From positions 1-39,032 of the IMG/VR virus record IMGVR_UViG_3300025010_000138: a stretch of 39,032 bases of DNA, one strand, 5' to 3'. The notes beneath the pieces were generated by a model. That model searched no databases. It was not told the DNA's origin and saw nothing but the letters and a program-made list of their open reading frames with translations. A program made the translations under genes and the position numbers. This document shows, one piece after another, positions 7,737-37,600 of the stretch. Within the stretch, counting starts at the first letter, position 1. Each line of letters begins with the position of its first letter. The DNA comes from a virus.

Positions 7737-8609
7737 TTAAGATTTAACATAATTATAAGCTAAGCCCAAATCGTGGGCGGTTTTAAGTGCGTATTGAAGG
7801 GTTCCTATTTCGTGGCATAAGCCAACTCTAATGGCATCTTCAGCATAATAAACATCTGCGCTAAATACTTCTGATCCGGCAGCAATGCCCATATTTTTAC
7901 TAATTGATGCATGAAAAATATTGTTGATATAATCAAGCCTGGCTTTAATTGGCTCTTCGTTGTTTTCGTCTACCAACTGGCGATATTCATAATCCTTTTT
8001 TACAGATAAAGTGGCATATACATCCTTTATAAAAATTCCGAGCTTATCGCGCAAAAATGAATTGATATCCATAATGTTGGTTTTTACTCCTATGCTTCCA
8101 ATCATATCAAGTTTGCTTGATGCAATAATTTTGTTGCAGCCTGAAATAAGCCACATGCCGGCACTGGCACACATTGAAGAAACAAAACCAACGGTTGGCT
8201 TTTCGCATTGAGCAATAGCTTCTGCAGCCAGATCGGTATTATTTACCATTCCGCCCGGAGTTTCGAACCAGAAAAAAAGTGATCCTATTTTAGGATTGTT
8301 TTCAGCTTCGCGGATACGATTCATTAACGACATGGTACCTGAATAGCCATATTTCATAATAACACCCATAATCGGTATTACAGCAATTGAGTTTTCAGGA
8401 ATGTTTGTATCGGTAAGTTCAAATCGGTCAACCGTATTTATTGATGAAGCAATAACATAAGGTTTATGTTTAGCCTGGTCAGTAATAAAAATATTGGAAG
8501 AAAGCTCTCCGCGCTGGAGAAACGACAGGATATAAGGAATGAATTTAAGGGCTGTATCCTGGTGGATCAGCCATTGGGCAGATAAAACTTCTTCAACCTT
8601 GTCGAACAT
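7737..8609 (-). CDS. S49 (SppA/protease IV-like) prohead protease
   Basis: A 290-residue protein with the ClpP/crotonase-fold pattern of S49 peptidases: FFWFETPGGMV (about 112-122) forms the oxyanion-hole region, and SSMCASAGMWLIS (about 144-156) carries the nucleophile Ser149. SKLDMIGSIGV follows. Phage members of this family cleave the scaffold and capsid N-termini during head maturation, and the capsid gene begins 11 nt downstream. The promoter at 8626-8660 leaves a 5' leader of about 10 nt. No signal peptide is present, as expected for a phage rather than a membrane SppA protein. Confidence 0.88.
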   Translation of the reverse strand: MFDKVEEVLSAQWLIHQDTALKFIPYILSFLQRGELSSNIFITDQAKHKPYVIASSINTVDRFELTDTNIPENSIAVIPIMGVIMKYGYSGTMSLMNRIREAENNPKIGSLFFWFETPGGMVNNTDLAAEAIAQCEKPTVGFVSSMCASAGMWLISGCNKIIASSKLDMIGSIGVKTNIMDINSFLRDKLGIFIKDVYATLSVKKDYEYRQLVDENNEEPIKARLDYINNIFHASISKNMGIAAGSEVFSADVYYAEDAIRVGLCHEIGTLQYALKTAHDLGLAYNYVKS

Positions 8610-14234: not shown

Positions 14235-17222
14235 TTAAAACGGCATCGCATCTTCTTCTTCAGTACTAAGTAAAGCTTGCCCCGGTTTTGATGCTATATA
14301 AAAACATTCTTCGGTTTGTCCGGTTGAGTTTAGATGTTTTGTTATGCGCCTTAACTCCCGGTTTGCATCGCCATTGCAAAAACTTAGCGGATTAAACTCG
14401 TATCCATAATATTCGCAATACGCCTGTACTGATGTTTTAAATTGCGTTGACTTGTATTTTGATGCCTGGGCACTGGTTAATAATTTTTTAAATTCATTCA
14501 TTGCCTGGCTTTTTATAATGAAGGTATCGAGGTAGCCTGATTCGGGTGGCGAAACGAGTTCCTTATAATCGTCAGGTCGTTTAACAAAATAGGTGTTTGC
14601 CCAAATCCAGAATTCTTCACCTTTGCCAACTCCGTGTGTCATTTGTCGGCGCAATTGTCGTTTTTCAAGATTTTCCATGGGTGGCATAATCTTAAAAAAG
14701 CGCATGTTTAGTTGAATGCAATAGGCTGCCAGGTTAAAAAATTTGTTCCATTCTTCGTCGGTGAAATCGTCGTATAAACGGCGGCCAAATTTCATTAATG
14801 GCGTGCGGGTTTCAATATAATCGTTGTATTTTGTGCGCTCGTGGTAATAATCGGAAATACCGCAATTAAGCACACGTGCTATGGTTGAGCTGTCGGTATT
14901 GTGCAATTCAAAATTTGTTGATATGAGCATTTTTCCACTATCGGGATATTCCAATATTTCACTTGATATGTGTTTTGCATTTACTTCGCGTTTACCGGTA
15001 ATTTGTGTATAAAAGAAATTGAAGTTTACGTATTCGTCCATGTCGTCGACTTCAATGATGTTGTGAAATTTGGTAAAGCCATCGTATATAAACTGGTTTT
15101 CGGTAAGGTTTGGCCTTCGTCCACCAATATAAAACGACGGGCGTATAAACCCAAAACCTTGCGTAAGTACGCTTTTGCCACTTCGCCCGGATGATTTGCC
15201 AACCTGGCTAATAAGCATATCCTGTAAAAGGGCTAACCATGGTTTTCCGGGATCCTTATATTGGGTTATCATGTAACCAAAAACATACATGAGGTTTGCC
15301 AATAGCAATTTTTCTTCCTGTTTTTCGGTAAGGGTAAGCGTTTGCTTTTTCTCCAGTTCTTTACGCCAATGTATGCGGGCCAGATCGAGAAGGAAACGAA
15401 CAAAAATAAATTCTTCGTCGTTTATGGTTATCTCGAATTTATCGATATCAGGAAGCTGGCCAATTTTAATATTGATGGCTTCGCGCTCGTCTGATTTTTT
15501 TGCTTGTGCCAGTTGATCAAGAAGATCTTGGTAATGTGCGGAAGCATTTACTTCAATTAACGGTTTTTCGATAAGCGATGCATTATGACTTATGAAGTGC
15601 GATATGCGTTTGTTGTTTATTTCAAGATTACCGAGAATATGATTTTCGAGCTCTTCATGCTTAATGCGTTCAATTTTTTCGTTGGTAATTTTTAAGGCTA
15701 CGTTTTTAAACACCAGAGTTTCGTATTTACTGTTGTAGTTTTTAAAGCCTGGTTCAATACGTTCAAGATTATCGGCTAAATCGCTTTCGGTAATTTGATT
15801 ACTACCGTTTAGTTTATTAAGGATGCTTATTTCATCCATAAGATTTTTGCTTTTTATCCAATCTTTAGTGAAGCGTTTTACAATTTTCTTCATGTCGTCG
15901 GGATGGATAAGATCAATAAGCTTGCCTTCAACACGGGCGTAACAGTACCCGGCGCGTTTATGGTATTTGCTGTCCATGGTAAAAAACCCGTTGAGCCGTA
16001 GAAAATAATAGAAAAACTCCATGTTTATGGTATAGTTTATTTTGGTTTTTCCGTTACGTTCGTCAAGTGATTTTGACCAGAATTTAGCGGGTTTGGCACG
16101 GCGTTTAAGCACTAAGAATTTACGCAGCGTGCTGTCCCAATTGTTGCCGTAAACATTTATGAAGTCTTTTACATCTTTACAGCGATTGCCCCGCCAGTCT
16201 TTTTTATAGCCCATATAATCGGGCAGTTCAATGGTAAAAAGATTGATGTGCTGCAAGGCAAGTTTTTGCGATGCCTGGCGACCGGTTTCGTCCATGTCCA
16301 TAACCTGGTAATGATTTTCGCAAAGGGCATCAACCTGTTTATACTGCTCGTAATCGTAACCGGCTGTTTCGCTGTTTAGCCAATAAACATGAAAATTGAG
16401 GCTGGCCACGTTTAGTGCATCGCTTTCGCCTGAGCAACGGATCATGTCCTTAATTTTTGGCTGTTTGTAATCTTTATCTTCGCCATTGTAATTGTAATTT
16501 CCGTCTTCGTCGTAATATTCGTTATCGGCATTTTCGAGCTGTTCAAGTCCATATATATAGTTTTTAGGCTTTTCGCCAATATATACAAAGCGGTTTTTCT
16601 TCTCCGGATCTAGCGGGCGGTATAGTTTTTTGAACTTGCCATAATCGAATACAAAAATAGGGTAATGCTCGTTAGCTTCGAATATATGAACTACATCGCG
16701 ATTAAGTTTTTTTGAATTTCCGCAATATTCATATTTTTCAACTGTACGGCAATGAAACCTATCGAGTATTTCTTTTGTAATGTAACGCCCTATTGAATGA
16801 AGATCGGTTTCTGAAGGAGTGGTTTTGTAAGTAAAATTGTATTCTCCTTTTTTGTCGGTTTTATCCATTTCGCGAAAAGCATACCCGGGCTTGTAAGATG
16901 GTTTTACAAACTGTCCGGCTTCAATGGTACGGCCAACAATAACATCCTGAATAAACTTAAGGGCATCGATATAAACAAGGTTTTCGTTCCATTTTACAAA
17001 GTCGACACAATCGAGCCCGTTCACCTGATCCTGGTTGCCAAAATCGGTAATTCGGTACAAGCCTTTATACCAACTTACCCTGGCTGACGCGGTTTTTTCG
17101 TTTTTCCGGATTTTAAACGCATGTTTTGAGTTTCCGAAATCAACTTCAGGGAAATAATACTTAAATACATCAAGCCCATTATTGGTGGCTTTGTAAACTT
17201 CGTTCTGATCGATATATGTCAT
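14235..17222 (-). CDS. Primase-helicase (Toprim plus SF3-type helicase)
   Basis: A 995-residue replication protein expected to prime and unwind phage DNA. The N-terminus (FKIRKNEKTASARVSW...) resembles the zinc-less front part of phage primases. Toprim motifs follow: SGESDALN (about 261-268), MDMDETG (about 307) and KDVKDFI. The helicase has Walker A GRSGKS (about 678-683), Walker B EVDDMDEY (about 720) and a motif-C-like MLISTNFEL. The combination resembles D5-like phage primase-helicases. It overlaps the upstream gene by 4 nt. It is the only clear replication enzyme in the window; no polymerase is present, so the phage relies on host replication. Confidence 0.88.
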   Translation of the reverse strand: MTYIDQNEVYKATNNGLDVFKYYFPEVDFGNSKHAFKIRKNEKTASARVSWYKGLYRITDFGNQDQVNGLDCVDFVKWNENLVYIDALKFIQDVIVGRTIEAGQFVKPSYKPGYAFREMDKTDKKGEYNFTYKTTPSETDLHSIGRYITKEILDRFHCRTVEKYEYCGNSKKLNRDVVHIFEANEHYPIFVFDYGKFKKLYRPLDPEKKNRFVYIGEKPKNYIYGLEQLENADNEYYDEDGNYNYNGEDKDYKQPKIKDMIRCSGESDALNVASLNFHVYWLNSETAGYDYEQYKQVDALCENHYQVMDMDETGRQASQKLALQHINLFTIELPDYMGYKKDWRGNRCKDVKDFINVYGNNWDSTLRKFLVLKRRAKPAKFWSKSLDERNGKTKINYTINMEFFYYFLRLNGFFTMDSKYHKRAGYCYARVEGKLIDLIHPDDMKKIVKRFTKDWIKSKNLMDEISILNKLNGSNQITESDLADNLERIEPGFKNYNSKYETLVFKNVALKITNEKIERIKHEELENHILGNLEINNKRISHFISHNASLIEKPLIEVNASAHYQDLLDQLAQAKKSDEREAINIKIGQLPDIDKFEITINDEEFIFVRFLLDLARIHWRKELEKKQTLTLTEKQEEKLLLANLMYVFGYMITQYKDPGKPWLALLQDMLISQVGKSSGRSGKSVLTQGFGFIRPSFYIGGRRPNLTENQFIYDGFTKFHNIIEVDDMDEYVNFNFFYTQITGKREVNAKHISSEILEYPDSGKMLISTNFELHNTDSSTIARVLNCGISDYYHERTKYNDYIETRTPLMKFGRRLYDDFTDEEWNKFFNLAAYCIQLNMRFFKIMPPMENLEKRQLRRQMTHGVGKGEEFWIWANTYFVKRPDDYKELVSPPESGYLDTFIIKSQAMNEFKKLLTSAQASKYKSTQFKTSVQAYCEYYGYEFNPLSFCNGDANRELRRITKHLNSTGQTEECFYIASKPGQALLSTEEEDAMPF

Positions 17223-17578: not shown

Positions 17579-17875
17579 TCAAGTGAACTCGTAGTATTCG
17601 TTATCACCCTTGATTATTGTTGTGAATGGAAATTTGTTTTCAGGTACTTTTTTTATCATTTGTATTAAAACAATTGATCCTGTAAATACAATTCTCTTTT
17701 CTCCTGATTTCTCAATTTGAAGCGTTAACAATTCAGTTCCAGCTTTTTGTTTTGAGGGTTCTATTTTAAATGCAATAACTGTTATTTGTAAATTAAACAG
17801 TCTTGATATGGATATTTTTTCTCCAACAAAAGAGCTTATATTTGGCTTTATTCCAAAGTCTTTAAATTGATGCAT
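17579..17875 (-). CDS. Small beta-rich protein coupled to the DGR reverse transcriptase (possible OB fold)
   Basis: A 98-residue protein whose start overlaps the last 14 nt of the RT gene, so both are made from one mRNA. The sequence alternates strands (KISISRLFNLQITVIAFKIE, ELLTLQIEK, KRIVFTGSIVLIQMI, FPFTTIIKGDNEYYEF), as expected of a five-strand barrel, possibly a single-strand nucleic-acid binder. It does not resemble Avd, the helical-bundle partner of many DGR reverse transcriptases. It may replace Avd functionally or may simply be a neighbour. The OB-fold and functional ideas are inference. Confidence 0.65.
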   Translation of the reverse strand: MHQFKDFGIKPNISSFVGEKISISRLFNLQITVIAFKIEPSKQKAGTELLTLQIEKSGEKRIVFTGSIVLIQMIKKVPENKFPFTTIIKGDNEYYEFT

Positions 17876-18824
17876 TTGATAATAGTTTTTTAATTAAATG
17901 ATTGGAATTGCAATGTTTCATCCACCCTTTATAAGATGCTATAGAAGCATTATTAGGATTCTTTTTCAACATTCGGGCAAAGTTTTGTTTAATACGTTTT
18001 CTTAGTAAAATGTGTGTATGGTAAATTCTATATCCGACAAAATCTATTCCGCGAGAAACTATAGGAAAAACCTGATAATTTTCTTTTATTATAAGTTTCA
18101 GGTTGCTTTTTAAATAGAATTTAATTTCTGCCAGAAGATTGTGTAAATATGCTTTTGAATGATGAAGTATAACAATATCATCAGCATATCTGAAGTAATA
18201 TTTTACTTGTTTGTTTTCTTTGATCCAGTGATCAAAGTAAGTAAGATAAAAGTTTGCTAAATGCTGACTTAAATAATTGCCTATAGGCAATCCATCTGCA
18301 CTATCTATTATTTCTTCAAGCAACCAAATTAAATCCGCATCTTTAAACTTACGTTTTAAAAGTTGCTTTAAAATATCATGATCTATGCTAGGATAGAACT
18401 TTACTATATCCAACTTTAAACAGTAAGTAGTTCCTTTAATATCTTTTAGCGATTTTTTAACATAATTAAGTGTTGCGTGTATTCCTTTTCCTTTTATACA
18501 ACTGTAAGAATCTGCAGTATAAACTGTAGTAAAAATTGGTTCTAAAATATTCATTATAGCATGATGGGTTATCCTATCAGGAAAATATGGCAACCTATAA
18601 ACTTCGCGTTCCTTAGGTTCATAAACCTTAAATATTTCGTAATCAGAAGTTTTATAAGTTCTATTTTTTAGCATTTTATGAAGTAATATCAAATTAGATT
18701 TTTTGTTTCTGTTGTGTAGTTGCACACCATATTGTTTAGATTTTCCTTTTTGAGCTTTTTTGTCAGCTTCTTTAAGGTTTTCAATGCTTATTATTTTATT
18801 ATATAAATTTCCTATTCGTTTCAT
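17862..18824 (-). CDS. Reverse transcriptase of a diversity-generating retroelement
   Basis: A 320-residue RT that would copy the template RNA into cDNA with errors at adenines. Motifs in order: KGKGIHATL (about 111-119), LKLDIVKFYPSIDH (136-149, catalytic Asp139), GLPIGNYLSQ (178-187) and YADD (213-216). The GxxxSQ form of motif 4, in place of the QGxxxSP of group II intron RTs, marks the DGR clade. There is no maturase, endonuclease or integrase domain. The template repeat lies about 100 nt before the start. The stop overlaps the small beta-rich gene downstream. RT, template and both targets share one strand and order. Confidence 0.95.
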   Translation of the reverse strand: MKRIGNLYNKIISIENLKEADKKAQKGKSKQYGVQLHNRNKKSNLILLHKMLKNRTYKTSDYEIFKVYEPKEREVYRLPYFPDRITHHAIMNILEPIFTTVYTADSYSCIKGKGIHATLNYVKKSLKDIKGTTYCLKLDIVKFYPSIDHDILKQLLKRKFKDADLIWLLEEIIDSADGLPIGNYLSQHLANFYLTYFDHWIKENKQVKYYFRYADDIVILHHSKAYLHNLLAEIKFYLKSNLKLIIKENYQVFPIVSRGIDFVGYRIYHTHILLRKRIKQNFARMLKKNPNNASIASYKGWMKHCNSNHLIKKLLSNASI

Positions 18825-18920
18825 GCCTTTGCTTTATAAAGTCGTTTTCCATTTCTGTACCAACGCCTTTGTTATGTTTGTTGTTTTTTGCCTTGTTGGC
18901 AAGGTCTGCGATGCTATATT

Positions 18921-18998
18921 TTTGCATAGGTGAGAGCTGACATTCGAATTCGTATTCCAATTATCGTAGTCGTTATACCGAAAAGCTGAAGAGCTAGC
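18921..18998 (-). repeat. DGR template repeat (TR)
   Basis: A 78-nt segment between the second target gene and the RT gene, matching both variable repeats without gaps. All mismatches fall at TR adenines (coding sense). The coding-sense sequence is rich in AAC/AAT codons (five Asn in the core), the known design that allows wide amino-acid replacement. It lies in a short open frame (18834-19067) that still reads CVMLWASSSAFR... in phase with the targets. It is therefore probably a decayed copy of a target gene and not itself a gene. A hairpin CCTTG/CAAGG lies just 3' in the sense strand (about 18890-18906). Confidence 0.93.
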
Positions 18999-19023
18999 CC
19001 AAAGCATCACACAACCTGTTTTT

Positions 19024-19413
19024 TTATAATAAATATTCGTTAAATAAGTCAATAAATTGATTGCCAATATATTCTGCTATTTCACTTGAATTAAAGCAAA
19101 GGCGAGAGCCGACAGACGAAACCGTAGCCCAATAAGCGCAGACGAGACACCGAAAAGCCGAAGAGCTAGCATCATAATCAAACCAGATTTCATACTTTCT
19201 TTCATTATAATTGCTAAAGTCAGGTGTCCATTCTTTACCATTATTTGCAAGTTTATTGGCTGCTCTTACTATTATAACAAGCTTTGCATGTGCAATCATA
19301 GAAGCCCTGTCCTTTTCAGGATAACATGAAAAATCAGGAATGACTTGTTTGGGATCTAATTCTAATACTTTACAAGCATCTTCAAACGTTTTTAATTCTT
19401 TGTACTTTTTCAT
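19024..19413 (-). CDS. DGR target (variable) protein 2
   Basis: A 129-residue protein with no signal peptide or membrane segment. The N-terminal part is helical (about 7-60), then EWTPDFSNYNERKYEIWFDYD leads into the variable region SSAFRCLVCAYWATVSSVGS (about 80-100). A conserved tail, RLCFNSSEIAEYIGNQFIDLF, ends it. It is paralogous to target 1 from the EGW/KEWTPDF segment onward. The residues coded by TR adenines have become L, V, C, A, A, V and S. It lies 14 nt after target 1, in one operon with TR and RT. Its role is unknown; a ligand-binding C-type-lectin-like domain is usual for DGR targets but not demonstrable here. Confidence 0.9.
   Translation of the reverse strand: MKKYKELKTFEDACKVLELDPKQVIPDFSCYPEKDRASMIAHAKLVIIVRAANKLANNGKEWTPDFSNYNERKYEIWFDYDASSSAFRCLVCAYWATVSSVGSRLCFNSSEIAEYIGNQFIDLFNEYLL
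19093..19170 (-). repeat. DGR variable repeat 2 (VR2)
   Basis: 78 nt aligned to TR without gaps: 20 mismatches, all at positions where coding-sense TR has A (23 such positions in all). The match begins at GCTAGC on the 5' coding side, longer than in VR1. Its 3' 21 nt are identical to those of VR1 and differ from TR at six positions, as expected of an IMH-type initiation site versus its TR counterpart. Confidence 0.92.
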
Positions 19414-19427
19414 TTTTTATAGATTAA

Positions 19428-19895
19428 TTAATTAATTAACATGAATTTTTTGTATAAATCAGTGAATTGCTCACCTGCAAACCTTGCCAGTTCAGAAGAT
19501 TTAAAGCAAAGGCGAGAGCCGACATCCGAACTCGAATTCCAATAATCGTAGCCGTCACACCGAAAAGCCGAAGAGCCCATTTTAAACCAGGGATAATATT
19601 TGTATTGATTATCATTATTCCAATCGGGTACCCATCCTTCATTGAGTGATTTACATAATAATTCAGCTATATATTGATGCTTTAAATGACCTGGTGCATT
19701 TTCAAACATTTTATCAATTTCTTTATGAGTAATGTTATTATCTTCCAATACATCGTCAATAGTCCTGATCCTATCAGTTACTTTTTTAATAAATACTTTT
19801 TCACCGAAAAGGTTTTCAAGTAGTTTTTTACCATTTGGTTTGGCGTTAAGATGTGCTTTTAAAGCATCTTCTTTTTTAATTTGTAGTGTTTCCAT
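19428..19895 (-). CDS. DGR target (variable) protein 1
   Basis: A 155-residue protein with no export signal. A helical N-terminal region (residues 1-95, with KPNGKKLLENLFG and HKEIDKMFENAPGHLKHQYI) precedes EGWVPDWNNDNQYKYYPWF. The variable region SSAFRCDGYDYWNSSSDVGS follows, and the conserved tail RLCFKSSELARFAGEQFTDLY closes it. The variable stretch is therefore internal, with about 30 fixed residues after it. Target 2 is a paralogue with a different N-terminus. It sits in the early operon behind a 60-residue CxxC protein, far from the tail genes, so an intracellular role is as likely as host-receptor binding. Confidence 0.9.
   Translation of the reverse strand: METLQIKKEDALKAHLNAKPNGKKLLENLFGEKVFIKKVTDRIRTIDDVLEDNNITHKEIDKMFENAPGHLKHQYIAELLCKSLNEGWVPDWNNDNQYKYYPWFKMGSSAFRCDGYDYWNSSSDVGSRLCFKSSELARFAGEQFTDLYKKFMLIN
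19503..19576 (-). repeat. DGR variable repeat 1 (VR1)
   Basis: About 74 nt aligned to TR without gaps: 14 mismatches, all at coding-sense TR adenines. Homology stops at GAGC (plus strand, 19573-19576), 4 nt earlier than in VR2. Nine of the substituted positions carry the same base in VR1 and VR2; four others differ between the two. Confidence 0.92.
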
Positions 19896-20106: not shown

Positions 20107-20415
20107 TTATTGGTTTTTAATCAAATAATTATTTTTGTTTTTGTCAATTTCAGTAAGAGTTTGGTCAAGTTCTGCATCACGATCGCGCAGGGTTCCTTCC
20201 ATGGCTTTAATGGTTTCTTCATTCATTTTTTCTTTAATTGAATTTGGTATGGCCTTTAAAAACTCAACCTTGGTTTTGCCTGTATCAATTACCACATTTA
20301 AAAGATTGCGTATTTCAATTGCTGTTTTCACATCAATTTGTTTTTCTTTTAGCTTATGTATTATGTCCATAGCCTCTTGTCTTACATCGGTAAGCGTTAT
20401 TCCTGTATTATTCAT
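20107..20415 (-). CDS. Hypothetical helical protein
   Basis: A 102-residue, almost fully helical and charged protein (DVRQEAMDIIHKLKEKQIDVKTAIEIRNLL...). The start overlaps the stop of the HNH-like gene by 8 nt. It is of the size and type of small phage adaptor proteins. It is not obviously an Avd homologue, though it is a small helical protein in a DGR operon. No function is recognised. Confidence 0.62.
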   Translation of the reverse strand: MNNTGITLTDVRQEAMDIIHKLKEKQIDVKTAIEIRNLLNVVIDTGKTKVEFLKAIPNSIKEKMNEETIKAMEGTLRDRDAELDQTLTEIDKNKNNYLIKNQ

Positions 20416-21190
20416 GGTTGTTTTTATTTATTTGTCGGCTTAATACGCCTTTTATTTGAATTAATTTACGTAATGGCTCAGGGTAGTTCTGGCATGTGTT
20501 GCGCTGCATTAATTCAGCGTTGCTAATCATTTCAAGATTATCGATAGTACAGTTCATTGTATCGCCGTTTTTAAATACTATATTATAACCACGAGGAATT
20601 TTGCCATTTTCTTGCTTCCAAACTACACGGCTTAACGTATCCCATTTTGCTTTTGAAATACGAATGTATTTTTGCATGGTACCTTTCTTGTCTTTTCTTA
20701 TTGTTATAGCTCCATCATAAAGAGTGTTTGCCGGAAGGTGACCTTTTGTAAAAAATGTGAGTTCAACTTTTTTACGTATTTCGGCAGGCATTTTTTTGCC
20801 TTTATTTTCAGGGGTATGCCCTTTTATAAACTGGGTTTGTTTGCCCCGGATATGGCCTTTGGTTAAAATTCCGCTTTGGGGACTTGCTAAAAATTCGGCT
20901 GATTTTTTTAAGCCAACAGTAGAAGCATAATTGTAAATAGTGTACATACTGAAACAAATAACTCTTGAAATATCAATTGTGCGGGTGTTGGCGTAATGCT
21001 TTTTAATGTACTTTTTTGCTTCCTCGCTCAATCTTCGTCGGTTTAAGTATTTAATGCCCATTGCCCGAGCTTTACTTTTAACCGAAGGATAACTTTTGCA
21101 TAAATACTGAGCTACGTATTTGGGACCCTTCCCGGGATAATAATTCCTTAAGAATTCAATGTCGTTTGTTGTCCAGTTATTTCTTGCCAT
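20408..21190 (-). CDS. HNH-family protein with degenerate active site
   Basis: A 260-residue protein. Residues 1-95 contain two helix-turn-helix-like units (WTTNDIEFLRNYYPGKGPKY and LSEEAKKYIKKHYANTRTID). A linker with two KGH motifs follows. The C-terminal HNH_3-like region reads WDTLSRVVWKQENGKIPRGY, then NIVFKNGDTMNCTIDNLEMI. Family members usually have HRxVW and a DH or HH pair where this protein has SRVVW and VF, so the catalytic histidines appear lost. It probably binds DNA without cutting it, perhaps a domesticated homing-type endonuclease. It overlaps the next gene by 8 nt. Confidence 0.75.
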   Translation of the reverse strand: MARNNWTTNDIEFLRNYYPGKGPKYVAQYLCKSYPSVKSKARAMGIKYLNRRRLSEEAKKYIKKHYANTRTIDISRVICFSMYTIYNYASTVGLKKSAEFLASPQSGILTKGHIRGKQTQFIKGHTPENKGKKMPAEIRKKVELTFFTKGHLPANTLYDGAITIRKDKKGTMQKYIRISKAKWDTLSRVVWKQENGKIPRGYNIVFKNGDTMNCTIDNLEMISNAELMQRNTCQNYPEPLRKLIQIKGVLSRQINKNNHE

Positions 21191-23084: not shown

Positions 23085-23630
23085 TTATTTATTTATTAGT
23101 GCATTTTTATATGCGTAGTTAATTAAGCTTGCCAGGTTGTGGATGTTAAGTTTTTTGAATATTCTTTTCTTATGATTTTCAACCGTAAATGGAGATATAT
23201 AGAGCCTGTCACCTATTTCAGCAAAGTTGAATTCCTGTACCAATAATTTTGTAATTTCAATTTCGCGCTTTGTTAATTCAAGATTTAATTTAGGGTGGCA
23301 AATCACATTTTCGTCGTTACAGAACCCCCCGCGTAAAGGGCAACGAACATGTTCCAGGTTAAAATTCCAATCGTCGTCAATGTCAATAACATTGTCGTGA
23401 AGGCTACCATTGCATTTCCAGTGGCGAAGCACTTTACGGAAGTTTTTATCTGCACATTTTTCGTATAACTCGTTTAGCCTGGCAACTTCTTCAGGAAAAT
23501 CACGTTCAATAATTTCAAGGGTTTTTTCAATAAATTCAATTTCTACAGGCGAGAAATTAACATAAGTATCTTCTTTCAGATTATGAATTACGATGCTGGT
23601 TTGCGCTTCGTTAGCAAATAATTCAATCAT
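23085..23630 (-). CDS. LuxR-type HTH regulator with cysteine-rich linker
   Basis: A 181-residue protein. The C-terminal LuxR/GerE helix-turn-helix covers about 118-175 (LTKREIEITKLLVQEFNFAE, then ISPFTVENHKKRIFKKLNIH). The N-terminal part is not a receiver domain. A cysteine-rich segment RCPLRGGFCNDENVICHP just before the HTH could bind a metal. It shares a TAATG stop/start with the gene before it. As the second gene of the early operon it may activate later phage genes, including those with palindromic or periodic operators in this window (inference). Confidence 0.82.
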   Translation of the reverse strand: MIELFANEAQTSIVIHNLKEDTYVNFSPVEIEFIEKTLEIIERDFPEEVARLNELYEKCADKNFRKVLRHWKCNGSLHDNVIDIDDDWNFNLEHVRCPLRGGFCNDENVICHPKLNLELTKREIEITKLLVQEFNFAEIGDRLYISPFTVENHKKRIFKKLNIHNLASLINYAYKNALINK

Positions 23631-23895: not shown

Positions 23896-23973
23896 ATTAG
23901 AATACGAATCTAATGGAAGTATTCCGTAAAAACAAATTTTTTCCGTATTTATTATGGAATATTTCTGTAAATA
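23896..23973. promoter_or_regulatory. Divergent operator region between repressor and early operon
   Basis: It contains ATTAGA-N7-TCTAAT (23896-23914) and two direct 22-bp repeats with palindromic centre TGGAA-n-TTCC/TTTC (23911-23932 and 23952-23973; 16 of 22 identical). Repeated dyads between a repressor gene and an oppositely directed first gene are the expected lysogeny switch, with repressor and Cro-like protein competing for them. Confidence 0.6.
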
Positions 23974-23981
23974 TATTGCAA

Positions 23982-24362
23982 ATGACAGTAAATGAGAGAT
24001 TTAAATTAATCAGAAATGAAACTGGATTTACTCAAGAAGTTTTTGGAGAAAGCATAGGTCTAAAGCAATCAAATATTACAGACATAGAGAGAGGGAAAGC
24101 ATTTCCTAACTTCAATATTATGGAAATAGTCCATAAAAAATTTAATGTAAATCTCAATTGGTTAATATGTGGAACAGGAAAAATGAAGATTGAAAATTCA
24201 AGTTTAGATGTTTTGGATGAATCGGGGAGTCAATATGGTAACCAGAATGATTTAATTGAATGTTTACAGGAAAACAGGCAGTTACAAAAAGAAATACGAA
24301 GTTTTATTGAAAACTGTACTTGTGATGCCGTAAAAATGGCTAAAAGCAAACAGGTTTCTTAA
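23982..24362 (+). CDS. XRE-family phage repressor (CI-like)
   Basis: A 126-residue protein from the ATG at 23982. Upstream in-frame ATGs exist (23913) but they would place operator repeats inside the gene. The HTH covers about 5-60: RFKLIRNETGFTQEVFGESI, then GLKQSNITDIERGKAFPNFN, followed by NLNWLICGTGKM, a typical ending for this subfamily (as in phage repressors without a peptidase domain). There is no LexA-type autocleavage domain, so induction must occur by another route, such as an antirepressor. It is probably the maintenance repressor of lysogeny. Confidence 0.87.
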   Translation: MTVNERFKLIRNETGFTQEVFGESIGLKQSNITDIERGKAFPNFNIMEIVHKKFNVNLNWLICGTGKMKIENSSLDVLDESGSQYGNQNDLIECLQENRQLQKEIRSFIENCTCDAVKMAKSKQVS

Positions 24363-25097: not shown

Positions 25098-26297
25098 ATG
25101 AGAAAAGTTATTTATGTTAAGCCTGAACTAAAAGATTGCTCCGGCGATCTTTCAAAAGCTTGGTATGTGGAATATTCATATCGAAATCCAAAAAATGACA
25201 GGCTGGGGCGTTTCCGTATATATAAAGGATTAAGTGATGTGGATGCTTCCTTAAGAAGGAAAAATGCAACCAAAATAATTAAGCTGTATAATGAAAAGCT
25301 TATAAACGGATGGTCGCCTTACGAGCCCGAAAACAAGGTTTTTGAAGATCAGTTAGAGTACCACAATATTGCCAGGATATACACCCGGAAGCGCATGAGC
25401 AACCAGTCGGTTAAAATTCATTTTTCAGCTTTCCTTGAAGAATGTAAATTGAAGATATCGCCAAAATCATACGAGAGCTATCAGAGTAAAATAAGGCTGT
25501 TTGCACAATATATTGAATTGCGCAAAAAAAACATGAACGACATTAGCGATTTGACAAACGATTTTGTAAAGTCTTTTTTTGCCTGGATAATTAAAGAGCG
25601 CAACCTTGATAAAATTACGGTGTTGAAGTACAAACAAAACCTGAATGCCCTGTTTAAATATTTGCTCTCGAAAAAGCTAATATTCGAAAATCCGGTTTAC
25701 AACATACCTATTCCGATAAAAAAAGTTGACAATAAAGCACAGGAATTCTTAATAGAGGACAGGCAGCAACTTCTTCAATTAATTAAAGCGGGAGATCCGC
25801 AGCTTTATCTTGCTTGTTTGTTTCAGTATTATTGTGCAACAAGGCCCGGAAGCGAGTTGCGATTGCTTAAAATTAAGCAGATAAACTTTAACGCCGGTGT
25901 GGTTTACATCCGGTCAACGGAAGCAAAAAACAACAATTCAAGAGTAATACAGTTGCCCGATAGCTTTAGTAACATCCTGAAAAAATACGGTATACACAAT
26001 TATAATAAGGAGTTTTATGTTTTTTCGAAGCTTGGTATTCCGGGACCAGAAGCACTGGGAAAAAATACATTGCGCAACCGGTTTAACCATTTTAGGGATT
26101 ACCTTGGATTAAGTAAGGATTATAAGTTTTATAGCTGGAAACATTCCGGAGCCGGGGCATTAGATGACATTAATATTCCGTTACGTGATATTCAAAAACA
26201 TCTTGGGCACTCAAGCCCTGGTTATACGGCTATATACCTCAATAGAAGAAGGGGGTTTAAGAATGAAAAGATAAGATATAATTTTCCGGATCCTTAG
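25098..26297 (+). CDS. int: Tyrosine recombinase (phage integrase), Bacteroidetes type
   Basis: A 399-residue integrase. The N-terminal arm-binding part (1-100) is followed by a core-binding SAM-like domain (about 105-195) and the catalytic domain. Catalytic residues: R249 in ATRPGSELR, a Lys in the beta hairpin (about 277), H349 in SWKHSGAG, H371 in LGHSS and the nucleophile Y380 in TAIYLN. The usual HxxR box is HSGA here, lacking the second arginine, as is common in integrases of Bacteroidetes phages and conjugative elements. It ends with a 4-nt overlap of the convergent tail gene. Confidence 0.93.
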   Translation: MRKVIYVKPELKDCSGDLSKAWYVEYSYRNPKNDRLGRFRIYKGLSDVDASLRRKNATKIIKLYNEKLINGWSPYEPENKVFEDQLEYHNIARIYTRKRMSNQSVKIHFSAFLEECKLKISPKSYESYQSKIRLFAQYIELRKKNMNDISDLTNDFVKSFFAWIIKERNLDKITVLKYKQNLNALFKYLLSKKLIFENPVYNIPIPIKKVDNKAQEFLIEDRQQLLQLIKAGDPQLYLACLFQYYCATRPGSELRLLKIKQINFNAGVVYIRSTEAKNNNSRVIQLPDSFSNILKKYGIHNYNKEFYVFSKLGIPGPEALGKNTLRNRFNHFRDYLGLSKDYKFYSWKHSGAGALDDINIPLRDIQKHLGHSSPGYTAIYLNRRRGFKNEKIRYNFPDP

Positions 26298-28385: not shown

Positions 28386-31271
28386 TTATTCAACGTCAAC
28401 GTCTGCTATAATTGTACCGCCCGTAAGGTTTGTAAACGGTTTACATCCGGTTTTCCGCAACTCAACAGTAGCAACCACAGGTGTATCTATTGTTATATAG
28501 CAACCTGCGTTGTCTTCCTCAACTTCAAATGTGCCGTCTAAGTTATCTGTAACCGTAACATAGTATGCCCCTATTGCTACAATTGCAGCCACCATTTCGG
28601 CGGCAATATCTATTGCAGTCATAACACCACCACCAGAGTTTCCTGTAATTGTATTGGTAGTCGTACCGCCATAATAGTCAATCAGACGGAATGAATTCAA
28701 TAAATCCGCAGTACATGATATTAGATATTTTCTTTTTGTTCCTGTTGTAATGTTTTCATCCGCAACGTTTAAGGATAAACCTGCTGATAATACCTTAACC
28801 GCTTCTGTAGTAGAACTGTACGGTATTTGAATTGCGTTACAGTAGTTTGCGTTTATTTCATTCTGTGCAAAAACAGCTCCATTTATCACTATTTTAGAAT
28901 CTTTTAAATACAAAACTGGCAAGCCTGCCGCTGTAGCCATTAAGGCAATTCTACTATTATTTATAAAAATTAAGCTCGACGTAACTGCTTTAATTGCATA
29001 CGGTATAGCTAAAGATGACCCGTACACTTGTAAATTACAATTATTTATCTGTAATTCTGCATTAGAAATATTCATATACCCAAATACCCCTGAAATACCC
29101 GAAAGTATGACCTTGCCTCCGGTTGCCGTTACAAAATCCACGTAGCCAGTTTGCCCGTTATAGTTTCCGAATAAAAAAACCGTCCCCCCTGTAATATTTA
29201 CCCCTCTACCATACGAGGGGGAATTATACAATTTATTAACAACCGAAACACCCGCATCTCCTGAAATCAGATTGCATTGGTCAATAAACATCGTACTGCC
29301 GTTATTTACTGCGGTAAGGAATAGCCCTTTTATTGATATAATTGAACCCGCTGCCTGACCGATAATTGTACCAGTTAAACTAACCATGTAGTAATCACCA
29401 TTTTTAACAGACATTCCATAACTTACGGAAACCGGTACAAGTCTATAAATAGAAGCAAGACCAATCCCTTGTCCATAGATACAGTGACTTGTTGTACTAA
29501 TCACTTCAACAGCAGTTAATTTTGAAATCGTTCCGTCGTCAACGTGTACTGCATAGTTCGCCGTTGACTTAATTGTTAGAATATTAACGATTAAATACCC
29601 TCTTAGTCTCATCGCATAAGACCCCTGAGATAATACGTAATTACCTTTTATTACTAAACTAATTCCTGACGTCGCTTGAGAAGCGTAAATGGCAACTGTA
29701 TTGATACTTATCGCCTGATCGAATTCAAAGATTGCATTTACGAAATTCGTATAAAAATAGTAGAAAATATAATAGCTACCCGTACCCTTATGGTAAAACG
29801 TTCCATAACCAGTGCATTTAAAATCAAATTTATTAGTGGTAACGGTAAAAATATGAATGCTTGACGCAGTTGTTACAACAGCACCAGCTTCAAAGTGAAA
29901 ATTGACGCCAGGTTTATTCAGCGTTGCCGTAATAGCATATACACCTGTTCTTACAATTATTGTGTGCGGGTAACAAATATCTATTGTAATTGCGTTTGCA
30001 CGAGCCACTTCGCTCATTGTAAATGAATCCGCTGCAATTGCCGTTATAAATACAGACTTAGTGGATGAAGTTGACGTTGAACTAAACACTTGTTGTCCTA
30101 TATATAACTTAGCAATATCTTCCGGCGCTACGCCAGTAACTTCTGCGCTTGCATTTGTAATAGTACAGTCGATAGTTTCTTCGGACGTAATTTGCGTTAA
30201 AGCATATGCTACGGTAGCGTATGGCGCAATAATAGAACCATAACCAACTGCATCCGTACCACCGTTTGCAACGTAAACTGTTTTTTGGTTTAAAAGGCTA
30301 ACTATATCTACGTCAATCCTGCTTTCTGCCTCGTTTCGGGTTGCACGAAGCGGCCTGACAAAATTAAGGGTTGTTTCGTCAGTTATAGGTGTACCTTCGT
30401 CGGCAATGGTGTGGCCGCCACCCTCTTCATCCGTATTATCAATCTTCTCCCATACCGTTCCATTAAAAACAATATTATCCTTAGCCTGCCAGTCGGCCTC
30501 ACCATCAATCTCGGTGGTTCCGGCAACGTTTACTGTATAATAATGCCCTGTAGTGCCTGTGCTGCTGACTAATTCGGGTGTGTTGGTTGTGGCGTTCCAT
30601 ACTCCCTGGTATTGCATTGCGCCTACAACGGCTGCCGGTAGTTGGGCAATGGGTATTTTTGTACCGGCATCAAGTGTGGCTACTCCGTTGGCGGCTGCTT
30701 TTTCGGTTGCGTCAATCTTGGCTTCCCAGGCTTTTGCCTGTGCATTGCTAACGGTTTTGTCTTTTACCGTATCGGTGTCGGTTTCATCAACCTGGTTTTG
30801 GTAACGGTAGGGCAATACATATCCGGTGCTTGCTGTTAATGCCAACAATACCGGGTTTACTATACCGGTGGTTGGGCGTGTGAGGGTTAATGCCCCGGCG
30901 GTTGCCTGCGAAACAAAATATAGCGAGCCTGGTGTTAAGCTGCTCAAGCCTTCAGCTAAGCCTACCTGTACTATCCTGAAAAATTCAGCTTCAACCAGCA
31001 CTACTATAAAAATGCCCACGGTAGCCGTACTATTTGCACGTGCTTTCTTGTAAATTGTGCCATCGTGGTAAACGGCATTGCCAACCGAAAAGCCATGCCC
31101 CGCCTGCTCAACGGTAAAGGCTATTTGCGTGGTAAGCCCGCGGCTGTCCTGTATGGCGGTTAATAGTTGCGTAAATGAACTATTGCCAATAGGCCCGCTA
31201 ATTGCCTGGGCATGATTGCTTGTATAATTAGCATCTATATAGTCTTTTATTGCTTGCAGATCGGCGTCCAT
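28386..31271 (-). CDS. Tail fibre/spike with beta-helix domain
   Basis: A 961-residue protein. N-terminal region 1-160 resembles tail-attachment domains of phage fibres (NAVYHDGTIYKKARANS, ALTLTRPTTGIVNPVLLALT). About 215-290 is a carbohydrate-binding-like module (YQGVWNATTNTPELVSSTGT ... DNIVFNGTVWEKI). From about 330 (TVYVANGGTDAVGYGSIIAP) a long right-handed parallel beta-helix of the pectin-lyase type follows. A C-terminal domain of Ala/Thr-rich strands ends it. It should recognise or degrade a surface polysaccharide. There is no match to the DGR template in it. Confidence 0.82.
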   Translation of the reverse strand: MDADLQAIKDYIDANYTSNHAQAISGPIGNSSFTQLLTAIQDSRGLTTQIAFTVEQAGHGFSVGNAVYHDGTIYKKARANSTATVGIFIVVLVEAEFFRIVQVGLAEGLSSLTPGSLYFVSQATAGALTLTRPTTGIVNPVLLALTASTGYVLPYRYQNQVDETDTDTVKDKTVSNAQAKAWEAKIDATEKAAANGVATLDAGTKIPIAQLPAAVVGAMQYQGVWNATTNTPELVSSTGTTGHYYTVNVAGTTEIDGEADWQAKDNIVFNGTVWEKIDNTDEEGGGHTIADEGTPITDETTLNFVRPLRATRNEAESRIDVDIVSLLNQKTVYVANGGTDAVGYGSIIAPYATVAYALTQITSEETIDCTITNASAEVTGVAPEDIAKLYIGQQVFSSTSTSSTKSVFITAIAADSFTMSEVARANAITIDICYPHTIIVRTGVYAITATLNKPGVNFHFEAGAVVTTASSIHIFTVTTNKFDFKCTGYGTFYHKGTGSYYIFYYFYTNFVNAIFEFDQAISINTVAIYASQATSGISLVIKGNYVLSQGSYAMRLRGYLIVNILTIKSTANYAVHVDDGTISKLTAVEVISTTSHCIYGQGIGLASIYRLVPVSVSYGMSVKNGDYYMVSLTGTIIGQAAGSIISIKGLFLTAVNNGSTMFIDQCNLISGDAGVSVVNKLYNSPSYGRGVNITGGTVFLFGNYNGQTGYVDFVTATGGKVILSGISGVFGYMNISNAELQINNCNLQVYGSSLAIPYAIKAVTSSLIFINNSRIALMATAAGLPVLYLKDSKIVINGAVFAQNEINANYCNAIQIPYSSTTEAVKVLSAGLSLNVADENITTGTKRKYLISCTADLLNSFRLIDYYGGTTTNTITGNSGGGVMTAIDIAAEMVAAIVAIGAYYVTVTDNLDGTFEVEEDNAGCYITIDTPVVATVELRKTGCKPFTNLTGGTIIADVDVE

Positions 31272-32946: not shown

Positions 32947-33606
32947 TTATTTAATTAATAGTCCGGTTGCTATTCCGGTAATAGACCAAAACCACCATTT
33001 TTGATAAAATTTTCGTGGTTCGGGTTTAATAACTATATTTTGTGCTGATATTAATTTAGCATTGGGATCGGGGAAGGATATATCCAGAACAAGTTCTTTT
33101 TGCTTTAGAAATCCTGTTCTTTTCCAGTACGATACATTTGTAAAATCGATTAAATAGGTGTAATTAAAATCCATGTACGAAGGATAAATAATTCCGTTAA
33201 AATCAAGATAAGTTGTGTTGTAGTTAAATTTCTTCACAAAACTTGAATCGATACCATTAATTAGCAAGGTGTCGTAAATAGTAATTGTATCATGATAGGT
33301 TACCAGTAATTTGGCCTCTAAATACGATACAAGATTGTTCAGGTTTTTCACCTGCTTTTTAAGACCAAAATTGTTGGTTATTAATTCATCGGCAATAGCT
33401 TTTAGCTCTTTATTGGTAATATTAATAGCCTTAATTTCAGCAATTATTGCATTGTTTTGCCCCTGGTAATAAGTAATTGTATCGTTTTTTGATTTAATTA
33501 CCTGCTTGTAATCGGCTATTTTGCTGTTTATATTAAAATAAACAGTAATAGCTGATAGCAGAAAGCCTATAAGTGCAGCTAATATTAATGTGGTTTTTAT
33601 TTTCAT
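32947..33606 (-). CDS. Spanin-like membrane protein
   Basis: A 219-residue protein with an N-terminal membrane anchor (about 5-25), a coiled coil (about 30-95), a beta-rich domain and a C-terminal hydrophobic segment (KWWFWSITGIATGLLIK). Two membrane ends joined by a periplasm-spanning body suit a unimolecular spanin, which disrupts the outer membrane at lysis. It starts 4 nt into the end of the endolysin gene. The spanin assignment is inferred from topology and neighbours. Confidence 0.62.
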   Translation of the reverse strand: MKIKTTLILAALIGFLLSAITVYFNINSKIADYKQVIKSKNDTITYYQGQNNAIIAEIKAINITNKELKAIADELITNNFGLKKQVKNLNNLVSYLEAKLLVTYHDTITIYDTLLINGIDSSFVKKFNYNTTYLDFNGIIYPSYMDFNYTYLIDFTNVSYWKRTGFLKQKELVLDISFPDPNAKLISAQNIVIKPEPRKFYQKWWFWSITGIATGLLIK

Positions 33607-34082
33607 GATTTTATTGAAAATTTTTGTGGATAATTCCTTATTTCCTGGTGTGGACGGTCCCAGCCCATTTCGTCTTTTTTATTTGTCCATAACATACCCG
33701 AATGCAAGTAAAGTTTTTTAGGTATTTTTCCTTCTCTCTTGAGCCTGTCCCATACGCTTCTGTATAAGGTTGATATATATACAAGCCTTTCGGTATTCCA
33801 GTTAATTTCACCATTTACAAAAGCACAAAGATCAAGGGCAAGTGATTTGCCTTCAGTATCTTTTAACTGGTGATAGCTTTTATTTATGTAGCCATCTTTG
33901 GTTGACCATTCGTCATTGTATAATTCATTTTGATAAGAATCGCTTCGTAAACCACCCCAGTCGGGAATTGAAATATCAATTGCACTTTCTTTAATTGTTT
34001 CTTCGGCGCAAAGCTGAAGATAGCGGTTAACTGTGCTTAATATGTTGTTTGAGCGATTACTGAATTTGAACATCCTGACCAT
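33603..34082 (-). CDS. M15-type peptidase endolysin
   Basis: A 159-residue protein with the metal-binding pattern of VanY/M15 peptidases: SYHQ (H71), then ALDL (D84), and DRPHQEI (H145, E147). This family cleaves peptide cross-links in peptidoglycan and serves as a lysis endolysin in many phages. It is cytoplasmic (no signal peptide), so it needs a holin, which the two membrane proteins just upstream can provide. An ATG three codons in is also possible. Confidence 0.86.
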   Translation of the reverse strand: MVRMFKFSNRSNNILSTVNRYLQLCAEETIKESAIDISIPDWGGLRSDSYQNELYNDEWSTKDGYINKSYHQLKDTEGKSLALDLCAFVNGEINWNTERLVYISTLYRSVWDRLKREGKIPKKLYLHSGMLWTNKKDEMGWDRPHQEIRNYPQKFSIKS

Positions 34083-34612: not shown

Positions 34613-37600
34613 TTATTCAAAGTTTTCAATTGCATTTGCTTCGTTTATATGTTGGCGCCCTTCGCGCCATGTGCTTGGTGGCACTATGGCAACAGGCGGT
34701 GTTTTTAGGTACTGTACCATTAAGCTCATCACTTGACGGCTTGCAGCCAGCTCAGCTTTTAAATCAGAATTATCTACATTAATATTATTGGTTACCGGCT
34801 GGCTGTAGCCAACACCACCCCCGGTGGTATACCCGCGGGTATAGTTTATTGCTTCGTTAAGCCCTGAATAATTTAGTGAACGCAAGCGTTTTGGCTCAAC
34901 GTAACTCGAAATAAAATTTGATATTACCGGATCCTGCATACCTTCCTGGTTAACTACATACTCGTTGGCATGCACGGTTCCTTTAGGTTCGTATTTTCTT
35001 CCGGGGCCGGTATGGCCACCTGACCAAAAATTGGAAGCTGCTGCATAATTAGACCATATAGCGGCTTCGTTAGCAATGGTGCGGATAATTGCCGCAGTAG
35101 TAAGCGCCACCCTTAACGATTGAGTTAAATCGGCGGTAACTACAGGATTTGAGTTTATACGGGCAAGTTCAACACCACCTTCCATTAATACCATGCCCGA
35201 TGATAAAATAGCCTGCCTGAGTGCCCACTTTTTTTCCAACTTACGTTTTTCTTCATCAAGCTCTTTTTGTAGTTGTTTTTGCTTTTCAGCGTTTCCTTCA
35301 GCTGCTTCAATTCTGTAATTATAAGCCTGTTCAATAGATTGTATCTCGTTGCTTGATGCCATCTGGAACATTGAACTTATGGCATCTGTGGCATAATGCA
35401 TGGAGTTTATCCATTCATCTGTTGTACGCCTTTTGCTGTCGAGTATTTCCTGGTCAATTAAGGCAACCCTGTCTTTATACTCGGCTAAGCTTATTATTTC
35501 AGCTTCGAGCATTGCATCCAGCATCACCTTTCTGCCTTCAAGCGTTTCCTGGTATTTCTGAATTAAATAGGTTGATTCATCCTGAATGGTTTCTTCATCG
35601 GGGAATGGATCCATTTTATTTTTTTCACCCTCAGGGAAGTATTTATCATAAATAGCCTTGCTTGCTTTATAATATTCTTCTTCGCTTAACAGGCGGGCTG
35701 CTTTATTTTCGTCAAGGGCTTGCATTTCTATAACAAAAAGTTCCTTTTGTTTTATTAGCCCATATTGCTTGCGTAGCTCAAGCAAGGCTTTTTGCAGGTC
35801 TTCTTCTGATTCAATAATATTTTCGGCGAAAGGCCTAATTTTTGACGCCTTTTCTAATTCCTTATTAATAAGAAACAATGAATTTTCAAGAGTATAAAGT
35901 TCTCCTGCTTTTTTTGCCATATCGCCAACTAAAATGTCTGCTAAATCAGAATCTCCCAACTCCCTTTTTATTTCAACAACTTCGTCGCTAAGAACATTGA
36001 ACAATTCTTTAAGTTCTGAAACTGATAATTTAGAAATAGCCGCGTTTAGTTTATTTATTTGCGCTTCAGTTGTGTCCAGAACCTCTTTTTCTATAAATAT
36101 TCCCGGACTTATTTCTTTCAATTCTTTTTTCAGCAATCCAACTTCACGCAAAAATTTTAATATTTTTTCTTTATTAATAATTCGCTCAGTGTTTTCAAGT
36201 TCCTTATTAAAATTGCTTTGTTGTTTTGTTGCATCTTTTGCCTTCGTTCGAAATAAAAAAAACGCACTTGCCGCTGAAGTTAAAACGCTTACCAATAACC
36301 CAACTGGGTTTGATTTAACTACAGTATTGAATACCCTGGTTGCTGCTGCTGCTAAATTTGTATATACTGTATATTGTTTTGTGAGATGCCCCGCCAATAA
36401 AATTGCCAATCGATAGCTAACGAGCGCAGTAGTACCAACCGCAATGATTTTTAAAAATAAACCTATGCCTTTTACCAGCCTGTCAAAATTTATATATAGA
36501 GATATAACTACCCTTTCAAGAAACTCCATAACGCTTGTTTTCATAAATAGCGCAGCAAAATCTTTAGTTAGTTTTTCTAATGTTGCACCAAGCGTTGCAT
36601 TTTTAATATTAAATTCTTCCTGTAACGACGTTCCTTTTTCAAATTCTTCGTTGGCTGTTCTCTGTGCTTCTCTTATTGTATCAGTATTTTCGATAAGGGC
36701 ACCTAAAACGGCAGCAGACCTTTGCCCTTCAACTCCCAGCATTTCTAAAGACTTAACCATTCCCGTAACGCCTCCTTCTGTAGATTTTGCACTATCGAGC
36801 ACAGTTAACAACGCTTCATTAGTGTCGCTGGCAAGCAGGTCGCTTAATTGCTGTGTTGACATACCCGCCATTTTTGCGTATCTAGGAATGTCTTTACCAA
36901 TAGCTATTATTAATTTTGAAAATACAGTTGACGACACTTCGGCAGTTTGCCCAAGCTGATCCAGGGCAGCAGCAAGTCCTAATGTATCTGCCGCCGATAT
37001 ATTTGCATTTGGGGCAATACCTGCTACCCGCTTGGTGAATTCAACCAAATAACCTTCACTGGCGGTTGATGCCGCACCAAGTGCGTTAATGGCTGAGCCT
37101 ATTTTCATCATACCTTCTTCAAGTCCATATTCTTCTTTTATTTTAAAAATGGCAACTAATTTTCCGATGTGGTTTATAGCTTCTTCAGTATTTCCTCCTA
37201 GATCTTCGCTAAGGGCAACATTTATTTTATCAGCCGCCCGTACAAACCCTTCCACGTCTTTTATTCCAGAAATTCCCAATTTCCCGGCTATGCGCGCAAG
37301 GCCTAATAATTCTTTATTCGCGGTGCGGGTATCAAATGTTTTAAGTGTTTTATAAAGTTCTTTTACTTCCTTATCAGTAAGTCCTGTTGTTTTTCTTACA
37401 TCGGCAAATGAATCGGAAAGCTCTGCATTGCCTTTTATAATACTGCTAAATTTAAACGCTATGCCGGTTAATGTGGCAATAACCGAAGCGCCCAAAAGGG
37501 CAAAGCGGTTAAAGCCATCGGCAATTTTACCCATTGATTGGCGCATGCCATTGCCTCCGGATTTAACCTTATGCATTTGTGCTTCTACCTTTTTAAGTTC

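Follow-up and report, generated by a model that had tools for sequence, protein, structure and literature searches.

A stretch of 39,032 nucleotides (nt) of viral DNA (IMG/VR record IMGVR_UViG_3300025010_000138, positions 1 to 39,032; this whole stretch is called the window below) carries a diversity-generating retroelement (DGR) on its minus strand. In this element a reverse transcriptase (RT), a template repeat (TR) and two variable repeats (VRs) stand together with a small protein of predicted oligonucleotide/oligosaccharide-binding (OB) fold and with a structured spacer RNA whose last bases are complementary to the ends of both VRs. No open reading frame (ORF) of the cassette matches an iterated profile seeded with four phage Avds, a profile that a very divergent Avd could escape. 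Taken as a whole, these features are likely best explained by a DGR that works without Avd, in which the OB-fold protein would be the partner of the RT, the spacer RNA would serve as their handle, and docking on the VRs would go through the complementary element. An earlier note, made from the letters of the DNA alone, had described a complete DGR with two targets at 17579-19895, and the RT motifs, the TR, the two VRs, the RT tree and the structure matches all agree with that description. Its span covers the cassette, including a last-transcribed gene (17579-17875) that it left undescribed. It also made no mention of the missing Avd, of the OB-fold gene next to the RT, of the folded spacer RNA with its VR-matching element, or of the fact that the targets are small and do not adjoin tail genes.

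The cassette and its repeats

The order of transcription on the minus strand is target A, target B, TR, RT and an ORF of 98 amino acids (aa). The features of the cassette are as follows.

19428-19895, minus strand: target gene A, an ORF of 155 aa carrying VR2 in frame, family phrog_11581; first gene of the cassette, the order being the same in relatives.
19501-19576, minus strand: VR2, 76 nt, aligned without gaps, with 14 differences from TR, all opposite TR adenines.
19502-19513, minus strand: 3' end of VR2, GCCTTTGCTTTA, resembling an initiation of mutagenic homing (IMH) site and complementary to the spacer element (inverted-pair match).
19024-19413, minus strand: target gene B, an ORF of 129 aa carrying VR1, paralogue of target A, family phrog_11581.
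19090-19170, minus strand: VR1, 81 nt, aligned without gaps, with 20 differences from TR, all opposite TR adenines.
19092-19103, minus strand: 3' end of VR1, GCCTTTGCTTTA, IMH-like and complementary to the spacer element (inverted-pair match).
18918-18998, minus strand: TR, located by repeat alignment.
18822-18923, minus strand: structured spacer RNA between TR and RT, with two conserved stems (covariance model R1, covariation in relatives).
18825-18836, minus strand: proposed VR-matching (guide) element UAAAGCAAAGGC, immediately ahead of the RT start codon; it can pair with both VR ends at 12/12 positions and with TR over at most 4 nt.
17862-18824, minus strand: DGR RT, 320 aa, with GNYLSQ (GxxxSQ) and YADD; family phrog_1423 (RT), with a structure match.
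17579-17875, minus strand: 98-aa protein with a predicted OB fold, its gene overlapping the RT gene's end; proposed, from predicted fold and genomic association, as a DGR accessory instead of Avd.

The repeats had been reported to align without gaps, and they do. The reported counts of 14 and 20 differences add up to 34, as in our alignment, but had been exchanged between the repeats: the VR at 19090-19170 has 20 and the one at 19501-19576 has 14. Within the 71-nt core the mismatches fall only at TR adenines (17/19 adenines changed in VR1 and 11/19 in VR2), the chance of all of them falling on A being 1.7e-14 for VR1 and 3e-8 for VR2. When the adenines of TR were masked, all 52 of the 52 non-adenine positions matched in both VRs, the next-best site in the window reached 28/52, and no VR besides VR1 and VR2 was found in the window. 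Differences confined to TR adenines and an RT with GxxxSQ and YxDD motifs are the marks of a DGR; the cassette is, with practical certainty, a DGR of a virus of bacteria.

All 34 differences do lie at TR adenines, as had been claimed, but their attribution as a whole to adenine mutagenesis was too broad. Among 126 related TR-VR pairs the 3' TR adenines in CAGC, CACC and CTATG read G in 124, G in 126 and T in 125 VRs, respectively, while the remaining TR adenines of the same pairs read A637 G487 T332 C218. At the CTATG site the fixed T falls on the third base of a leucine codon and is silent. These three 3' sites behave like the IMH/IMH* boundary of phage BPP-1 and unlike mutagenised positions. 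Because they are fixed in related VRs, not all 34 differences are products of the mutagenic machinery: each VR holds at least three differences from TR that are fixed, and the AAA/TTT tail is probably another.

The reverse transcriptase and its branch

Both motifs named in the earlier note, GxxxSQ (as GNYLSQ) and YADD, are present in the 320-aa ORF, and in the RT tree this protein is set apart from group II introns. The closest solved structure is the RT of the BPP-1 DGR (PDB 8ub7, E 3e-44; the next match has 2e-14). A scan of viral contigs with the RT gave 311 relatives, and 91 of their loci were examined. By a strict search 85 of these 91 hold a TR and a VR, and 66 have at least two VRs, mostly in the same order. 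Three loci (L046, L085 and L086) show three target genes with three VRs, one TR serving all. Matches in cellular genomes are mainly in Bacteroidota (Flavobacterium, Chryseobacterium, Elizabethkingia, Pedobacter and gut Bacteroidales), and also in Ignavibacteria and some Firmicutes.

In a quick RT tree the loci with Avd fall outside a group that holds nearly all loci with the OB-fold protein (support of 94 by the SH-like approximate likelihood ratio test, SH-aLRT), the archaeal virus ANMV-1 excepted. The order target-TR-RT without avd, by which lineage 3 is defined (PMC7290462), is found in the window. Crassphage LMMB, assigned to lineage 3 in the same paper, falls within the part of the tree made up of loci with OB or with neither accessory, in a tree that does not contain the original lineage reference set. 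The window element is a phage DGR of a large Avd-less branch.

The target proteins

The two targets are small paralogues, and 72 of their 76 homologues belong to phrog_11581. Viral DGR targets are mostly tail proteins (PMC8144416), while these genes sit elsewhere, so they may be something other than tail proteins or receptor binders. In the window the cassette lies below the HNH endonuclease and the repressor/integrase region; the tail genes stand at a distance from it, at 28-38 kb. In relatives it is surrounded by early genes, the named neighbours being a primase, a MuB-like transposition protein, a helicase loader, a Sak4-like ATPase, a nuclease and a methyltransferase, with no tail genes among them. 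The other possibility, which we hold to be somewhat less likely than not, is that the targets are small C-type lectin (CLec) receptor-binding virion proteins, unusual only in the position of their genes. Besides the prevalence of tail proteins among viral targets, it has in its favour that the solved DGR targets have the CLec fold (PMC6328139) and that the VR stretch of the target model has a predicted local distance difference test (pLDDT) score of about 42-66, a low confidence that could hide a CLec core. It is opposed by the confident helices that flank the VR on both sides, by the lack of any Pfam match in the 76 homologues, by the lack of a convincing PDB match for the model (missing rows prove nothing about the fold) and by the gene neighbours just named. 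Structure matches among viral proteins are uncharacterised phage proteins.

The spacer RNA and its VR-matching element

The spacer between TR and RT, of about 95-125 nt, could be aligned across 65 relatives, and it is a structured, strongly covarying RNA. Its predicted stems are paired in 98.4% of the alignment cells, 139 cells being changed on both sides; none of 500 shuffles came near this figure, and sliding the stems by 1-3 columns left at most 44% paired. Covariance model R1, built from 44 of the aligned spacers, scores 106.4 bits on the window spacer, whose sequence is among the training rows. The model also matches directly before the RT in gut Bacteroidales, in crAss-like phages and, more weakly, in Firmicutes-type loci, and gave no match in the Avd loci searched. 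Rfam gave no match to a known RNA family in the window.

The last 12 nt of this spacer, UAAAGCAAAGGC (18836-18825), are the exact complement of both VR 3' ends and match TR over 4 nt only. We compared VR-spacer duplexes over 156 loci. In loci with the OB-fold protein the longest exact VR-spacer duplex has a mean of 9.1 nt, against 5.1 nt for TR and spacer and 5.5 nt for shuffled spacers; in the Avd loci (n=5) the VR-spacer mean is 4.8 nt. Of 134 OB loci, 103 have a VR-spacer duplex of at least 8 nt, and none has such a duplex between TR and spacer. Own VR-spacer pairs also beat cross-locus pairs (permutation p 1e-4 overall and p 1e-4 in the 57 non-standard cases), with a weaker covariation (p 0.003) when a fixed 10-nt VR core was scored instead of the longest duplex. 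Among the elements that are non-standard yet match their own VR are TAAAACAAAGGC in L118, AAAAACAAGGC in L124, AAACACAAGGC in L025, AAAACAGAG in L063 and, in a Firmicutes-type locus, AAACATCAGG in L162; the RTs of these five loci are 42-83% identical to one another. The spacer of these elements ends in a stretch of 8-12 nt that is complementary to the VR end, not to TR, and that varies in step with the VR from one lineage to another.

Such a pattern suggests that the pairing of spacer and VR is probably functional; whether it acts in target recognition we regard as evenly poised. Since the element touches the RT start codon, the main rival to target recognition is control of RT translation: the element would pair with the VR ends as RNA in a polycistronic transcript and hide the start codon, with no part in the choice of target. 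In most of the loci whose duplex reaches 8 nt or more, the element indeed ends 0-3 nt ahead of the RT ATG, and the targets, TR and RT share one orientation and probably one transcript. However, translation control requires neither that both VRs match nor that TR be excluded from matches of 8 nt or more. Moreover, the fixed T at the synonymous leucine position faces the element and sits where IMH/IMH* differences are expected. We therefore hold this rival to be rather unlikely.

A predicted OB-fold protein beside the reverse transcriptase

The 98-aa ORF belongs to phrog_19665, a family without assigned function. AlphaFold2, run on 60 sequences, predicted a beta-rich model (mean pLDDT 90.5) with the order strand-strand-strand-helix-strand-strand, which has no four-helix bundle and fits the OB fold, a five-stranded barrel with a helix between strands 3 and 4. 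A structure comparison of the model (VIA) lists OB folds with Z 4-7, among them SSB (3pgz, Z 6.0), PriB (5wqv, Z 5.4), RPA and HIN. Pfam gave nothing beyond two stray weak matches in 60 homologues, and no solved relatives of this protein or of the targets were found by sequence.

The gene keeps close company with the RT. Of the 80 best viral loci 79 carry it, and in the remaining one the contig breaks off 63 nt past the RT. Among genome loci it is found in 60 of 80; those without it lie at contig ends or are Firmicutes-type, distant or Avd loci. Its usual start in relatives lies 13 nt ahead of the end of the RT gene. When 789 Bacteroidota genomes (396 of the Flavobacterium order and 393 of the Alistipes order) were searched with the OB family as query, 18 matches were obtained and 18/18 lay beside or inside a DGR RT ORF. 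In gut Bacteroidales the homologue stands before TR, which is the position of avd in BPP-1, or a few hundred bases past the RT. In hankyphage p00, L123 and L220-L222 the OB domain is fused to the C-terminus of the RT (residues 327-434 in hankyphage p00, E 5.7e-14). The archaeal viruses ANMV-1 and vir525 carry an OB homologue after the RT. Among 185 RT loci, OB and Avd never occurred in one locus, as judged by an in-house Avd profile that divergent Avds may escape.

Some loci depart from the usual layout. The RT frame of L188 (LoVEphage OY725593) is interrupted, and its second ORF consists of the last part of the RT running into the OB domain. In L083 and L084 a cysteine-rich ORF of 85 aa is inserted between the RT and OB genes, where the overlap usually sits. 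The crAss-like and Firmicutes-type loci L097, L182, L192-L194 and L157-L168 share the spacer RNA, some of them weakly, and neither Avd nor OB was detected in them. By eye, the RT of crAssphage LMMB seemed to carry a similar OB domain in its C-terminal extension, but neither hmmsearch nor hhalign supported this, and the reading was discarded.

We are highly confident that the OB-fold protein is a true DGR component, and it is somewhat probable that it is Avd-like in role. The contrary explanation, that this is an ordinary Avd-type DGR whose Avd is supplied by the host or encoded at another place in the phage and that the OB gene is a passenger neighbour, we consider improbable. OB-fold single-strand-binding proteins are common in phages, which would suit a passenger, and Avd is essential in BPP-1 (PMC12875486). 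A passenger is however hard to reconcile with 18 of 18 independent matches lying with a DGR RT, with several RT-OB fusion ORFs and with homologues in both bacterial and archaeal viruses.

Activity in sister elements

Because the search itself forces the counts of non-adenine differences within detected stretches to zero, activity was judged by differences over whole loci. The loci L010 and L102 differ at 21 positions over 10,945 aligned nt, all of them within the two VRs (11 and 10). Likewise, L083 and L084 show 6 differences over 2,257 nt, and L141 and L142 show 15 over 10,707 nt, in the VR only. In L018 and L020 one VR has 11 changed sites and the other VR is identical; therefore each target can be rewritten without the other. 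Since sister elements are identical over 2-11 kb except in the VRs, the DGR family is active on both targets. The statement of the earlier note that the system is recently active thus holds for the family, whereas for the window phage itself our analysis covered a single contig; a relative of 100% identity (L002) was discarded as population evidence because it is the same contig as the window, which makes up the first 39,032 nt of IMG/VR UViG 3300025154_000149 (48,337 bp). That the window DGR has decayed and lost its activity, for which this single contig leaves room, is very improbable given an intact RT with YADD and GxxxSQ, 52/52 non-adenine positions kept in both VRs and active sister elements.

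Genome context

The window is a temperate siphovirus-like genome. Its other recognisable features are listed below; no tRNA was found in the window.

7737-8609: head protease.
20408-21190: HNH endonuclease.
23085-23630: regulator.
23913-24362, plus strand: cI-like repressor.
25098-26297, plus strand: integrase.
28386-31271: minor tail protein.
33603-34082: endolysin.
34613-37972: tape measure protein.

Just downstream of the DGR, at 14235-17222, lies a gene for a protein of 995 aa that matches phrog_28855 only, with an ORF of 102 aa before it.

Comparison with known systems

DGRs as such, DGRs with two targets (PMC10743442) and DGRs without Avd (PMC7290462) are already known. The DGR of Bordetella phage BPP-1 (bRT-Avd-TR-VR; RT structures in PDB 8ub7 and related entries) shares with the window element an error-prone RT, adenine-specific transfer from TR to VR, a structured spacer RNA between TR and RT and an IMH/IMH*-type difference at the 3' end (PMC12875486, PMC3240598). 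The window DGR differs in having no detected Avd, an OB-fold partner downstream of the RT and two small targets; in BPP-1 the VR-spacer complementarity is 5-6 nt, not above chance, and the spacer RNA model finds no match. The DGR of crAssphage LMMB ("Lineage 3" of Wu et al. 2018, according to PMC7290462) has the same target-TR-RT order, no avd, an RT in the same part of the tree and a match to the spacer RNA model. However, it has one tail-fibre target, and neither an OB partner nor a VR-spacer match was detected in it.

Bacteroides hankyphage p00 (PMC6199706, PMC12135933), whose DGR activity has been demonstrated by culture sequencing (PMC12135933), likewise has the OB domain. In this phage the domain is fused to a distant RT of about 34% identity, the one target is a large tail fibre, and the spacer RNA model has no match. 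The DGR of the archaeal virus ANMV-1 (PMC4372165) has the OB homologue as the gene directly after the RT but a single CLec target, an archaeal host and no VR-spacer match found. Finally, the phage DGRs of the nd4/nd12 tentaclins (PMC10743442) also serve two target genes from one TR, yet there one of the VRs lies close to the 5' end of its gene, CLec proteins are the targets, and the cassette is drawn with an AVD gene. The literature searched names Avd, HRDC and MSL as accessories (PMC10053308). Neither an OB-fold partner nor a VR-matching spacer element was found with DGRs in that literature, outside which lie Wu et al. 2018 and preprints, where an earlier mention may exist.

A possible mechanism

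By analogy with BPP-1, the RT and the OB protein would bind the folded spacer RNA, which would be a handle for both, and the RT would copy the TR part of this structured RNA with errors at adenines. The 98-aa protein would be a dedicated RT partner that does the job of Avd, most likely by binding template RNA or single-stranded cDNA. The cDNA would be antisense and match the VR coding strand, and the spacer element would pair with the same strand at the VR end, such that RNA and cDNA may dock side by side on the VR. The mutated cDNA would then replace VR1 and VR2 in the two small paralogous targets, and TR, having no match to the element, would be spared.

Several observations weigh against this scheme. 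The RT tree is a quick one with long branches, and ANMV-1 falls in it beside an Avd phage. The OB assignment is by predicted fold alone, with a best Foldseek E of 0.013, a poor alignment and Z scores below 8, short of proving kinship. Crass-like and Firmicutes-type DGRs have the same spacer RNA without a detected OB protein. The VR-spacer match is missing in several loci (L014, L030, L047, L062, L076 and L151), and part of the 57 non-standard cases are mutually related. A figure legend on hankyphage marks an "Avd" (PMC12135933). The hankyphage "Avd" was proposed from size and isoelectric point (PMC6199706), and the ANMV-1 paper also labels or proposes an Avd (PMC4372165).

In a broader form, which we put forward tentatively and with some doubt, retrohoming throughout the Avd-less branch would be guided by RNA: a short guide at the template RNA's 3' end would pair with the VR end but not with TR. 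A dedicated OB-fold protein, either separate or fused to the RT, would replace Avd and hold RNA or cDNA during copying and docking, and in this phage family two small early-region proteins, no tail fibre, would be diversified.

For roughly a quarter of DGRs no accessory gene is known (PMC7290462), and the way in which mutated cDNA reaches VR while sparing TR is still an open question (PMC12875486). With the predicted OB-fold partner, the covarying spacer RNA and the candidate VR-matching element, the questions of helper and targeting become directly testable, including in hankyphage, which has the OB domain in an active RT. If the proposed mechanism is true, this branch would offer targeted protein diversification a second chassis, one free of Avd, and it would show phage DGRs at work on small proteins whose role is perhaps not receptor binding.

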